A DNA stretch of 64,000 bases, from contig NZ_CP168151.1 in the NCBI RefSeq assembly GCF_026913205.2, positions 1,736,001 to 1,800,000 on the forward strand, in the 5' to 3' direction. Position numbers and translations under genes: made by a program. Below, piece after piece: positions 3,832-41,623 of the stretch (positions are counted from its first letter, which is position 1; every line of letters starts with the position of its first letter). The notes beneath the pieces are model-generated. The model ran no database searches, was not told the DNA's origin, and was given only the letters and a program-made list of their open reading frames with translations. The stretch comes from Lentilactobacillus sp. SPB1-3 (GTDB lineage Bacteria; Bacillota; Bacilli; Lactobacillales; Lactobacillaceae).

Positions 3832-4842
3832 TTATTTTTCGCCGTAAACCTTAGCAGTTCTAACCATGTTAGCAACAAATCCATATTCGTTGTCGAACCA
3901 AGTAGCAGTCTTAACAACTTGGAAGTCACCGTTTGAAGTTACTTCAGTCAAGGTTGGGTCAAAGACAGCACCATGAGTGTTGCCAATGATATCTGAAGAT
4001 ACGATTTCGTCTTCGTTCCAACCAAATGCTGCGTTACCTTCAGTGTATGGCTTGATAGCATCGTTTACTTGATCAGCAGTAACGCCCTTCTTGCTGAATA
4101 CTGATACTAATTCGCAGACAGATCCATCAACAACGGCAACACGTTGTGCGTGTCCTTGAAGGTGTCCATCCAATTCTGGAATAACCAATCCAATGGCCTT
4201 AGCAGCACCAGTTGAATGAGGAATGGTGTTAGATGAAGCAGTTCTGTTAGGTCTGAACTTCTTGCTCTTAGGACCATCCAAAATCATTTGTGAACTAGTG
4301 AAGGCATGGATAACAGTCATGGTACCAACTTCGATACCGAATTCTTTGTTCAAGTAGTAAGCCATTGGTGCTAATGCATTAGTAGTACATGAACCAGCAG
4401 AAATGATTTGGTCGCTTGAATCAATAGTGTCATGGTTGACGTTGTAAACAACAGTCTTCATTGGACCAGCAGGAGCTGAAATTAAGACCTTCTTAACGCC
4501 AGCATCCAAATGAGCTTGTGACTTTTCTTTTGAAGTGTAGAAACCAGTACATTCAATTACCATTTCAACACCGTTGTTCTTAACCCAAGGAATTTGTGAA
4601 GCATCCTTTTCAGCGTACACAGGAATTTCCTTACCGTTAACTACGATACCATTATCAGTTGAGCTAACTTCGTATGGTGAAATACCATGTGTTGAGTCAT
4701 ATTTGAATAAGTAAGCAAGCATTGATGGAGTTGTTAAATCATTGATTGCAACAACTTCAAGTTCTGGATCATTAACTTCAAGAATTCTCTTTAATGTTAA
4801 ACGACCAATACGACCGAAACCATTAATTCCAATTTTTACCAT
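3832..4842 (-). CDS. gap: Glyceraldehyde-3-phosphate dehydrogenase, divergent
   Basis: 336 residues, full length. The Rossmann motif [10 protein letters not shown] opens the protein and Asp in AINDLT suits NAD over NADP. The catalytic Cys152 (SCTTN) and His179 (VIHAF) are at their canonical positions, as are STGAAKA and the AQRV arginine that bind phosphate. The S-loop (about 183-200) lacks the usual RRARA segment and reads RPNRTASS, and the motif after the active Cys is TNALAP rather than TNCLAP. The true start is the ATG at 4842, because a GGAGGG site lies just upstream; an in-frame TTG at 4857 falls inside that site. The gene stands alone, not next to cggR, pgk or tpiA, so it may be a second GAPDH. 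Confidence 0.93.
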
Positions 4843-4983
4843 TAATATTCCCTCCAAAAAACCTTTTTAAATTACTAAACATGAATCTATGACAACTAGG
4901 ATATTCACTAATCATCTTATTGTCGTGATTAGTATACAAAATTTTTCTGAAAAATGGTTAAATAAACCACTTTCAATTTGTAA

Positions 4984-20343: not shown

Positions 20344-20358
20344 TAAAAAGTCGAGTGA

Positions 20359-20447
20359 CACATTCCCTACGCAAGTGTTGGCTTACAGGTTCAAAGGGAT
20401 CGAGTTGTTCAAACTCATCTCAGCTGCTATGGCAGCACCCCTAGTGT
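20359..20447 (-). ncRNA. TPP (THI) riboswitch aptamer
   Basis: The minus strand shows all conserved blocks in order: GGGGTGC, GCTGAGATGAG, CCCTTTGAACCTG, then CTTGCGTAGGGAATGTG. The outer helix CAC...GTG closes the aptamer. It precedes the thiM-thiD-thiE genes and a terminator, so TPP binding should stop transcription. Confidence 0.95.
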
Positions 20448-20477
20448 TTAACTAGTTATTCTATTTATACTATAAGA

Positions 20478-38909: not shown

Positions 38910-39754
38910 TTATTAGCGATAAATTTAGTTACTTGCTTGTTAGTTTGCTTTGTTTCCCGTAATGCGTGCCATAAAATATATTCATGAAAGGCCTCAGAAA
39001 ATTCCACGACTGTGACACTAGTTTTAGCTGCTTGCCTTAACGTAGCAACAAATCGTTCATTATCTGGAACCAGCATCTCGTTAGCACCATAAAACAAAAT
39101 GACATTGAGCCCAGTTAAATTATTTGGGTCAAACAAATCAACTGTGTCGCCTTTATCCAAGCCATCAATAAATTGCTGGCCAATGGTTTGTAAAACGTCT
39201 AATTCCAAAAAGACATCGGCATCATCACGTTTTTGAACGGCCAAATTGGTCAATGTTAAATCAATCCACGGAGAGATGATGATAGTTTTATCAATCCAAA
39301 CAGAACGACGACTAGCTACTTGGAGCATTAAATAGGCACCGGCAGAGTCACCAAGCATATTGATTGGTAGATCCGTCAGCATGCATTCATCAAAAGCTTT
39401 GATACAAAAATCAATCATTTCACTAGCTTTATGGGCCAATAACAAGGGGAAATCAATGATTTTCAGTTGAGAATTTGTTTTTTTAGCTATATTAATCGCA
39501 AACGCTAGTTGATCGTCATTCAGTGGTACTGTGAATGCGCCCCCATGAAAATACACCAGCTGGCTACCCGGGTCATCAACGACATTAAATGTCACGATAC
39601 GACCATTATCAATTTCTTGAACATCAACACTTTCTGCTGATTTGTTGGTTAACCAATCACGGTTCTGGTTAGGCATTAAAAAAAGATGAGAAATATTGGC
39701 TTTATATTGCTCAATTTTCATTTTATGTATTAGTCTTCTTGAACGAAAGCTCAT
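38906..39754 (-). CDS. Alpha/beta hydrolase, HSL-like
   Basis: 282 residues. The oxyanion motif HGGAF (about 70-74) and the nucleophile elbow LGDSAGA with its Ser are of the hormone-sensitive-lipase family. The late motifs LFYGANEMLVPD and FHEY supply Asp and His. A lipase/esterase of unknown substrate with no signal peptide. The start at ATG 39754 follows GGAGGTG; an in-frame start at 39769 overlaps that site. Confidence 0.85.
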   Translation of the reverse strand: MSFRSRRLIHKMKIEQYKANISHLFLMPNQNRDWLTNKSAESVDVQEIDNGRIVTFNVVDDPGSQLVYFHGGAFTVPLNDDQLAFAINIAKKTNSQLKIIDFPLLLAHKASEMIDFCIKAFDECMLTDLPINMLGDSAGAYLMLQVASRRSVWIDKTIIISPWIDLTLTNLAVQKRDDADVFLELDVLQTIGQQFIDGLDKGDTVDLFDPNNLTGLNVILFYGANEMLVPDNERFVATLRQAAKTSVTVVEFSEAFHEYILWHALRETKQTNKQVTKFIANK

Positions 39755-39827
39755 TGCTGACACCTCCAAAGGTATACCGCTTACATAAATATACCACTAT
39801 TAGATATTTTTGTCTGATTTTCATAAA

Positions 39828-39855
39828 TTCACAAAATCTTCACAATTCGTTCATA
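39828..39855 (+). promoter_or_regulatory. Three TTCACA-type direct repeats with 11-base period
   Basis: TTCACA at 39828, TTCACA at 39839 and TTCATA at 39850 are spaced exactly 11 bases apart. Such one-turn direct repeats are bound by OmpR/PhoB-type response regulators. The third repeat could serve as -35, 18 bases from TATATC (39874-39879), giving a start near 39886 for the first C-loop RNA. Confidence 0.5.
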
Positions 39856-39885
39856 GTTAAGCAACATTTAATCTATATCATCCTT

Positions 39886-40021
39886 TAATGAAACAGAAGC
39901 ACATGTGCATCTGTGTGGTTATAAATTAAATCCCCCTTTAATTTATTACTTTTATATTCATATTCTTCCCCTAGAATATAGGTATCTTGAAGATAAGACA
40001 TCCCCGTGTCTTATCTTTTTT
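39886..40021 (+). ncRNA. C-loop small RNA, copy A
   Basis: Three successive perfect hairpins, all with six-base C-rich loops: ATAAATTAAA/TTTAATTTAT around TCCCCC (39921-39946); ATATTCT/AGAATAT around TCCCCT (39960-39979); and the terminator AGATAAGACA/TGTCTTATCT around TCCCCG (39991-40016), followed by T7. The T run only on this side fixes the plus strand. The 69-codon frame over it lacks a ribosome binding site. The 5' end is an estimate. The build, with repeated UCCC loops, resembles Listeria LhrC RNAs that pair with Shine-Dalgarno sequences. Downstream is a related second copy. Confidence 0.7.
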
Positions 40022-40109
40022 TGTGCCCAAATTTTGAACAATTATCATCTTCACAAAAAAAACATATTTTCATCGTTGTTTGTTAACAGTTATTGTGTAT
40101 TATTTAAAT

Positions 40110-40268
40110 CATAGAGAAGATGATCAATTATAAATCCATCTTCTTTCCCCCATATCGTAACAAACTAACCCCCCATTAATTTGTTGCATCGATATATTCC
40201 CCTCAGAATATAGAAAATAGACATACTTAATCAAACGGATAAGACACCCCCATGTCTTATCCGTTTTT
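40110..40268 (+). ncRNA. C-loop small RNA, copy B
   Basis: A paralogue of copy A about 240 bases downstream. Hairpins: AACAAAcTAA/TTAaTTTGTT around CCCCCCA (40159-40185, one mismatch); TATATTC/GAATATA around CCCTCA (40193-40212); and a 14-bp terminator stem around CCCCCA (40233-40266) with T tail. The terminator core GATAAGACA/TGTCTTATC is identical in both copies. A 5' hairpin AGAAGATG/CATCTTCT (40115-40144) is followed by a further unpaired TTCCCCCAT. Possible promoter TTGTTT (40076-40081), 16 bases, TATTAT (40098-40103). Between the copies, 40022-40109, I see only promoter sequence. Confidence 0.68.
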
Positions 40269-40280
40269 CATTACTATTAT

Positions 40281-40332
40281 AAAAAATAACCGATTCTAGG
40301 TAATTATGCACACCTAGAATCGGTTATTTTTT
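40281..40332. terminator. Bidirectional terminator behind purB
   Basis: A 21-base near-perfect inverted repeat (AAAAAATAACCGATTCTAGG and complement) with a ten-base centre. It ends purB on the minus strand and insulates it from the small RNAs. Confidence 0.9.
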
Positions 40333-41623
40333 AGTTAAAAACACGTTCTAAAATCTCATCGACATTGCGAATATGATAATGATAGTCAAAAGCATCAGCG
40401 ATATCCTCTGGAGATAACCGGTCAGTAATTGGCTGACTAGCTGTTACCAATTCAATGAATTGAATCTGTTCATCCCAAGCCTTGGCCGTTAATGGCTGGA
40501 CTAGATCATAAGCGGCCTCTCTGGTAAGACCACTATCGATCAGTTTTAGCATAACCCGTTGGCTATAGATTAATCCATAGGTTCGGTTCATATTCTCCTT
40601 CATAGTTTCTGGAAAAACGTCTAAATCAGCGATTATTTTAGTGAAGCGGTGAATCATATAGTCAACTAACATTAGAGTATCTGGAATGATGACTCGCTCT
40701 GCTGAAGAATGAGAAATATCTCTTTCATGCCATAACGCAACATCCTCATATGCAGTCACCACATGACCCCGAACAACTCTGGCTAACCCACAGATGTTTT
40801 CAGAACCAATCGGATTGCGTTTGTGAGGCATCGCAGATGAACCTTTTTGACCGGGATTAAAATGTTCTTCGACCTCATGAATCTCAGAACGTTGCAACCC
40901 GCGAATCTCAGTCGCAAATTCTTCCAGACCGGTCGCAATCAAAGCCAAAGTAGCAATGTAGTTGGCATGTAAATCACGCGGCAATATCTGAGAAGTGATT
41001 TCTTGGTTTCGAATTCCCAGTGATTGGCAAACATATTCCTCAACAAATGGTGGAACGTTCGCAAATGTGCCAACTGCTCCCGAAATTTGGCCGACTTCGA
41101 CTTCCTTAGCAGCAGCTTCAAACCGTTCTTGGTTCCGTTTCATTTCCGAATACCAACGAGCAAGTTTTAATCCAAAAGTCGTGGGTTCTGCTTGAACCCC
41201 ATGTGTTCGACCGATCATAACGGTATCTTTGTACTGATAGACTTTGTCTTTAATGACGGCCATCAGATCAACGATGTCTTGGCGAATAATCGCATCCGCT
41301 TGCTTAATTCTCACACCATAAGCAGTATCAACAACGTCTGTGCTGGTGACACCATAATGGATCCATTTACGTTCTTCACCAAGTGATTCAGAAACGTTTC
41401 TAGTGAATGCAACGATATCATGGTGAGTCACGGATTCAATATCTGCGATTTTATCAACATCAAATTTGGCATTCTGCTTAATCTTTTCAACGTCGGTTGC
41501 TGGGATCCGTCCAAGCTTAGACCATGCTTCATCAATGGCAATTTCGACTTTCAGCCAAGCCGCATACTGATTCTCAAGGGACCAAATGTGGTTCATTTCT
41601 GGACGCGAATATCTATCGATCAT
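40331..41623 (-). CDS. purB: Adenylosuccinate lyase
   Basis: 430 residues, fumarase/aspartase fold. The family signature SSAMPHKRNPIGSE (catalytic Ser loop) is at about 261-274; TSTDVVDTA and the general acid His in GRTHGVQAEPT are also present. It splits SAICAR and adenylosuccinate, so acts in both IMP and AMP synthesis. It is divergent from purA-guaC across a 232-base regulatory gap. Confidence 0.95.
   Translation of the reverse strand: MIDRYSRPEMNHIWSLENQYAAWLKVEIAIDEAWSKLGRIPATDVEKIKQNAKFDVDKIADIESVTHHDIVAFTRNVSESLGEERKWIHYGVTSTDVVDTAYGVRIKQADAIIRQDIVDLMAVIKDKVYQYKDTVMIGRTHGVQAEPTTFGLKLARWYSEMKRNQERFEAAAKEVEVGQISGAVGTFANVPPFVEEYVCQSLGIRNQEITSQILPRDLHANYIATLALIATGLEEFATEIRGLQRSEIHEVEEHFNPGQKGSSAMPHKRNPIGSENICGLARVVRGHVVTAYEDVALWHERDISHSSAERVIIPDTLMLVDYMIHRFTKIIADLDVFPETMKENMNRTYGLIYSQRVMLKLIDSGLTREAAYDLVQPLTAKAWDEQIQFIELVTASQPITDRLSPEDIADAFDYHYHIRNVDEILERVFN

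Follow-up and report, generated by a model that had tools for sequence, protein, structure and literature searches.

A conserved family of multicopy RNA units with C-rich loops in Lentilactobacillus and their probable action on translation start sites

Two tandem RNA units with C-rich hairpin loops, encoded within a 64,000-nucleotide stretch of the genome of Lentilactobacillus sp. SPB1-3 (hereafter the window), belong to a conserved family that is absent from Rfam. Conservation, a secondary structure with covariation, a common promoter architecture, and best-match complementarity to translation start regions were observed for these units. They are considered likely to form a new family of trans-acting small RNAs (sRNAs) that occur in several copies, are probably under two-component control, and pair with Shine-Dalgarno (SD) sequences, akin in their working to the LhrC RNAs of Listeria and the csRNAs of streptococci.

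Locus and structure of the two units

The host genome consists of a single contig of 1.93 Mb, in which both units are located in a gap flanked by an esterase gene and purB, the best named match of the latter being from Lentilactobacillus (84% identity). Both units are non-coding and separately terminated, and the gene-free gap amounts to the 576 bases given in a preliminary description of this DNA, provided that the esterase start is the ATG at 39754. The features of the locus, in window coordinates, are as follows.

Start near 39754-39769, minus strand, divergent: alpha/beta-hydrolase (esterase) gene, Pfam Abhydrolase_3
39886-40022, plus strand: sRNA unit A, approximately 137 nt, start predicted from the promoter; covariance model R1, 102.6 bits
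39893-39914, plus strand: 5' hairpin of A from folding, loop not C-rich, sequence variable among relatives
39917-39950, plus strand: hairpin H2 of A, loop TCCCCC at 39931-39936, stem nearly all-AU with covariation, reverse complement AAAGGGGGATTTAATTTAT
39950-39980, plus strand: linker and hairpin H3 of A, loop TCCCCT at 39967-39972, near-invariant and retained in 27 of 27 A units
39990-40022, plus strand: intrinsic terminator of A, loop TCCCCG at 40001-40006, from folding and covariation
40112-40268, plus strand: sRNA unit B, approximately 157 nt, predicted start; model R1, 73.7 bits
40113-40146, plus strand: 5' hairpin of B from folding, loop not C-rich
40147-40151, plus strand: single-stranded C-run CCCCC of B from folding, a fourth C-rich site, ACCCCCCAATAA in most relatives
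40157-40187, plus strand: hairpin H2 of B, loop CCCCCC(A) at 40169-40175, from folding, alignment and RNAalifold
40193-40212, plus strand: hairpin H3 of B, ATATTC-CCCTCA-GAATAT, loop at 40200-40205, identical in the 17 of 17 B units gathered by the H3 motif
40233-40268, plus strand: intrinsic terminator of B, loop CCCCCA at 40247-40252; many stem sequences among relatives, loop retained
40331-41623, minus strand: purB, Pfam Lyase_1 and ADSL_C

Loops and stems agree with the preliminary description, which had reported tandem related units with three C-rich-loop hairpins each, and the terminator stem core that it had found common to A and B is indeed present in both (GATAAGACA/TGTCTTATC). Beyond that description, each unit has a 5' hairpin, unit B contains the fourth C-run, and the sequence of H3 is itself conserved. 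The predicted fold energy is far below that of shuffled sequences for A (z=-6.2), for B (z=-7.9), and for both together (z=-8.6), and none of the shuffles was as good. Elsewhere in the window, a TPP riboswitch (20346-20452, minus strand) is the sole Rfam family found at gathering score.

Conservation within and outside the genus

The locus was compared by blastn with 100 related genomes, and every one of the other 23 Lentilactobacillus genomes gave a match, mostly several per genome. The esterase gene adjoins the array in 22 of these 23 loci, and purB is within reach in several. A hairpin finder detected C-rich loops in 23 of 23 genus loci, in the order type A, type B, with extra single units between them, the number of units varying from 1 to 4 per genome and differing between species. 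Since all 23 genomes match and covariation is strong (see below), a chance origin is ruled out.

The third type of unit, between A and B in L119, L121, L126, L128, L134, L137, L139, and L140, consists of one C-loop hairpin-terminator (for example AGAAAAGGTG-CCCCCA-CACCTTTTCT), sometimes with TTCACA boxes of its own, and matches model R1 weakly (26-44 bits). In the small genome G020, ATTCCCCAAT loops are repeated in one more stretch outside the main locus (L341:880-1010).

Among 301 genomes of the family, model R1 with strict filters found units outside the genus only in G057 (two loci), G130, and G339, where the units occupy other genomic positions and combine a terminator and C-loops with repeats resembling TTCACA or TTCATA. 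In named purB loci of Secundilactobacillus and Levilactobacillus, the R1 matches beside purB have E values between 5e-5 and about 0.5 and are for the most part weak. The S. malefermentans array at this position comprises four tandem C-loop hairpins, the last with loop CTCCCC and a terminator-like stem. The stem sequences of such purB-linked arrays are unrelated, and TTCACA-type boxes are present in some; the arrays occupy gaps in L044, L051, L057, L062, L066, L076, and L079, at about 4290-4890 in each locus.

Relatives of unit B were also seen elsewhere in two Lentilactobacillus genomes, G019 and G012, at L336:997-1108 (minus), L337:1036-1129 (plus), and L338:1031-1124 (minus). These carry the ATATTCCCCTCAGAATAT hairpin behind an ordinary TATAAT promoter lacking TTCACA boxes, and the group is possibly mobile because two of its members are carried by contigs as short as 17 and 27 kb. 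Plasmid and phage collections contained no match to the locus or to the outlying units, L337 included.

The position of the array invites the explanation that the units act in cis, as a leader or attenuator or as antisense to the purB or esterase transcript, and have no function in trans. It is favored by the short distance of the units from the esterase gene in almost every genome of the genus and from purB in other genera. Neither flanking gene is downstream of the units, however, because both are oppositely directed; moreover, each unit has its own terminator, the units have multiplied in tandem, and related units are found at other loci (L237-L240, L336-L338), so that a purely cis-acting role appears very improbable.

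Covariation and sequence constraint

Alignment of 21 A and B units and analysis by RNAalifold with no structure supplied returned the same three helices, with two-sided changes in 14 of 26 pairs. With model R1, 60 matches were collected in the window and the genus loci; 95.3% of the cells are paired, two-sided changes affect 26 of 28 pairs (14.2 in shuffles), and the covariation score is 0.433, as compared to 0.156 for shuffled alignments and at most 0.084 when partners are slid. Because the 60-unit alignment was fitted to the structure, RNAalifold, run unaided, provides the cleaner evidence. Compensatory base changes, the absence of which had been named beforehand as a possible refutation, are present, and the loops are conserved in related genomes.

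The terminator 5' arm occurs in 10 distinct sequences among 27 A units and in 16 among 17 B units, with retention of the C-run. C-runs are likewise kept in nearly all loops, two species having an H2 loop of unit B without one. The earlier proposal of selection on the loops amid freely changing stems is well supported by this covariation together with the persisting C-rich loops. Unlike the other hairpins, H3 has a stem that scarcely varies. The identity of H3 among B units arises partly by construction, because these units were gathered via the H3 motif ATATTCCCCTCAGAATAT; nevertheless, the neighboring columns are conserved too, and the 14-base core of the motif turns up again in L238 and L239, which were found independently.

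Tandem copies whose number changes between species would also be expected of a repeat family at the DNA level that owes its form to duplication and not to RNA function. Such an origin is hardly credible given the conserved promoter of each unit, the compensatory stem changes, the retained loops and H3, and the fixed locus across genera.

Promoters, TTCACA boxes, and candidate regulators

Direct repeats precede both units, as listed below.

39828-39833, 39839-39844, and 39850-39855, plus strand: unit A promoter boxes TTCACA, TTCACA, and TTCATA, spaced by 11 bp, the third at the -35 position
39874-39879, plus strand: probable -10 of unit A, TATATC, 18 nt after box 3, a conserved column that reads TATA-T in relatives
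40050-40075, plus strand: unit B promoter boxes, TTCACA at 40050-40055 followed by a degenerate AACATA at 40061
40096-40103, plus strand: probable extended -10 of unit B, TGTATTAT, which is TGTATATT in relatives

Throughout the genus, A units are preceded by TTCACA-N5-TTCACA-N5-TTCA or near variants, with box 3 about 18 nt before a TATA-like -10, an arrangement suggestive of a response-regulator-type promoter. Relatives of unit B show TTCACA-N5-TCACA-N5-GTC (17 B units aligned), the first box alone being intact in the B unit of the window. The exact three-box pattern was found 28 times in 24 genus genomes, of which 26 at sRNA loci, versus 0 for the reversed control; in the genome of SPB1-3 it is found once, at the unit A locus. 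Allowing two mismatches gave an excess over the control in several genomes (for example 20 versus 0 and 16 versus 3) and none in SPB1-3 itself (5 versus 5), where two-box sites with one mismatch were also about as frequent as in the reversed control, a comparison that is uninformative alone.

Box sites away from the sRNAs are near genes for S-layer-type proteins, a GlsB/YeaQ-type protein (Pfam Transgly_assoc) with an Asp23-like gene downstream, and ABC-type membrane or permease proteins, as well as other surface and secreted proteins, in varying orientation to the gene and with several of the gene names being our own reading of the sequences. Collectively, these sites resemble what an envelope regulon might look like.

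Several individual sites were recorded. TTCACA repeats occur in either orientation near S-layer-type genes of several species (L271:1112, L272:1521, L276:1478, L285:1354-1403, and L203:2621, 2796, and 3927), and three two-mismatch sites in SPB1-3 are located between S-layer-type paralogs. Strong three- to four-box sites lie upstream of ABC-type membrane proteins in L145, L172, and L273, the site of L145 and L172 being placed between a lipoate-ligase-like gene and that of a 318-amino-acid membrane protein without a Pfam family. A further site, between Spx-like and metallo-hydrolase-like genes and directed away from the former (L283:1394, L204:1797), is present in G010 and in SPB1-3.

SPB1-3 encodes seven OmpR-type regulators. 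For four of them, namely WalR, the L292 type, the LisR/ArlR/CovR-like L293, and the L295 type, each of the five further genomes with sRNA units that were tested has a reciprocal-best ortholog. Autoregulation did not single out a candidate, as no convincing box was detected at the seven OmpR-type loci of SPB1-3 or at those of five other genomes. CiaR was rejected because the CiaR-like regulator of SPB1-3, L297, has no ortholog that could be found in G020 (88% complete) and G339, both carriers of the family. Control by PhoP or phosphate was set aside as well: the pstS loci of the genus have no boxes nearby, the one site among 30 pstS loci scanned being a weak one in a genome of another family, and G020, G339, G057, and G130 have no reciprocal-best ortholog of PhoP.

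The units could also be SD-pairing sRNAs under a housekeeping, phosphate, or other regulator and not under an envelope-stress system. PhoB/PhoP-type boxes have a period similar to that of the TTCACA repeats, and WalR is among the four common regulators. The pstS and PhoP results argue against this possibility, as do the further box sites at S-layer-type and envelope-stress genes; it is regarded as doubtful, but as one to be taken seriously.

Complementarity to translation start sites

The linker and H3 of unit A have a reverse complement (ATATTCTAGGGGAAGAATATGAATATAAAA) that reads as an SD sequence, a spacer, AUG, and codons for Asn, Ile, and Lys. Complementarity to a whole initiation site would provide a reason for the conserved sequence of the unpaired linker and H3. 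G-rich SD sequences of the form AAAGGGGGA-N3-8-ATG number 2-10 per genome, compared to 0-2 for the reversed control.

In SPB1-3 and seven related genomes, 15 of the 25 best antisense matches examined for unit A are on SD or start-codon regions, often those of secreted proteins, a count taken without a genome-wide shuffled-query control. Within SPB1-3, a blind blastn search placed four of the seven non-self matches examined antisense to an SD and start codon; these belong to genes for a 132-amino-acid protein, a membrane protein that begins with TTG, a short-chain dehydrogenase, and a secreted 5'-nucleotidase-like protein. The dehydrogenase and nucleotidase genes are located near bases 395674 and 108378 of the genome, respectively. 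The 76-nt core of A was compared with the seven relatives, and of the 18 non-self loci inspected, 11 are antisense to a start region. Among these are the start regions of proteins with signal-peptide-like starts (lectin-domain, beta-lactamase-fold/GW-domain, and histidine-phosphatase-domain proteins), of gapA, and of the dehydrogenase and nucleotidase orthologs in G023. The occurrence of the last two in both genomes may be inherited, because G023 and SPB1-3 (G000) are close. Unit B has one match on the ribosome binding site of metK.

Bulk tests gave no support. The duplex energy with the 52 start regions of the window was equaled by 42 of 60 dinucleotide-shuffled sRNAs for A and by 11 of 60 for B, and exact complementary words in 156 start regions showed no excess over shuffles, which means that C-richness alone accounts for average SD pairing. 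The reversed A core, included as a control for the word counts, exceeded its shuffles, for which reason this statistic is not specific and is not used as support; its score may come from C-runs and an SD-complement-like order, and we have no other explanation for it. The proposal that the units act on SD sequences finds indirect backing in the antisense matches at start sites and in the G-rich SD sites of the genus, but not in the bulk comparisons with shuffles. Such action is probable on grounds of design, conservation, and best matches, and not of a general statistical excess.

The negative bulk tests bear on a further explanation, in which the units serve as sponges or decoys and their C-loops, instead of binding mRNAs, sequester an RNA containing G-runs or a protein, for instance an RNA-binding regulator. 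We know of no C-loop-binding regulator in this group, which counts against it. Identical loops repeated on many stems do typify protein-sequestering RNAs, the repeated-loop design of LhrC having been likened to CsrB/Rsm RNAs (PMC4132741), and bulk complementarity to mRNA is no higher than that of C-rich shuffles. A sponge would nevertheless leave unaccounted for the conservation of the unpaired linker and the 5' arm of H3 as the complement of SD, AUG, and codons, and the location of the best antisense matches on start regions. A role as sponge or decoy is therefore judged unlikely.

Proposed mode of action

Judged from sequence, the units appear to be transcribed, to be controlled by a response regulator, and to have mRNA targets. 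In the preferred model of trans-acting sRNAs, an OmpR-type response regulator, probably sensing cell-envelope stress, would bind the TTCACA repeats and switch the units on, after which each transcript would stop at its own terminator and expose C-runs, three in A and four in B. Pairing would begin between one C-run and the G-rich SD of a target mRNA and would then extend into the weak A-U stem and the linker, which are complementary to the spacer, AUG, and first codons, thereby blocking translation initiation. Targets would likely be a subset of mRNAs, many of them encoding secreted or surface proteins, and the several copies with differing stems could provide dosage as well as somewhat different target sets.

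A bolder version of this model holds that linker and H3 are a generic antisense to SD-AUG-Asn-Ile-Lys, as a common start of secreted proteins, and that the family is an envelope-stress brake on the synthesis of secreted and surface proteins across several Lactobacillaceae genera; this version is speculative and, as it stands, rather unlikely.

If the preferred model is correct, lactobacilli own an LhrC/csRNA-like control layer that is absent from Rfam and has kept a single locus throughout Lentilactobacillus and, it appears, in Secundilactobacillus and Levilactobacillus too. A near-invariant anti-initiation hairpin amid freely changing stems would then offer a testable case for target choice by C-loop sRNAs, and the TTCACA boxes a way into an envelope regulon, so far unnamed, that seemingly includes S-layer genes. 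The strongest testable points are the regulator and the question whether the family brakes the synthesis of secreted proteins.

Comparison with known sRNA systems

At gathering score Rfam returned no sRNA family for the window; LhrC was absent even at E<=10, the best sub-threshold sRNA being sbrA (E=0.14). In line with the earlier remark that no relative had been described in lactobacilli, this family does not appear in the literature covered on sRNAs of lactic acid bacteria, which lies mostly outside subscription papers.

Other Firmicutes sRNAs with a UCCC motif, including RsaE, FsrA, and SprD, bind the translation starts of mRNAs with a C-rich motif (PMC4132741). They share this motif with the Lentilactobacillus units but have other sequences. 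To our knowledge, sRNAs of this type do not form arrays of units with repeated C-loops.

The csRNAs are preceded by the CiaR box TTTAAG-N5-TTTAAG, with the -10 ten bases on, and are complementary to SD and AUG (PMC3091779). The csRNAs or Ccn RNAs of streptococci, which depend on CiaRH, resemble the Lentilactobacillus units in being several per genome, in direct-repeat response-regulator boxes with an 11-bp period, and in complementarity to SD and AUG. In contrast, the Lentilactobacillus promoters show TTCACA-N5-TTCACA-N5-TTCA in place of the CiaR box, and most csRNAs consist of two stem-loops that flank the pairing site.

LhrC1-5 and Rli22 of Listeria monocytogenes are driven by the two-component system LisRK, and LhrC is a multicopy sRNA whose UCCC sites, located in two loops and in a single-stranded segment, pair with a surface-protein mRNA at its SD region (PMC4132741, PMC5880928). 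As in LhrC1-5, Rli22, and Rli33-1, there are several copies here, with a repeated CU/C-rich motif in the loops and in the terminator loop, whereas sequence and hairpin number differ, as does the presence of the H3 anti-initiation element. The LisR/ArlR/CovR-type regulator L293 is present in six of six sRNA-bearing genomes tested and is a candidate for the link to the units.

Membership in the LhrC or csRNA families is not supported, because there is no Rfam match and the box is different. The likeness in design that had been proposed at the outset stands as regards the multiple copies, the C-rich loops, and the two-component-type promoter, and does not extend to the CiaR box or to Rfam. In keeping with the functional class of multicopy, two-component-driven sRNAs that pair with SD sequences, the Lentilactobacillus units are conserved structured RNAs with exposed C-rich sites and with a promoter and terminator of their own.
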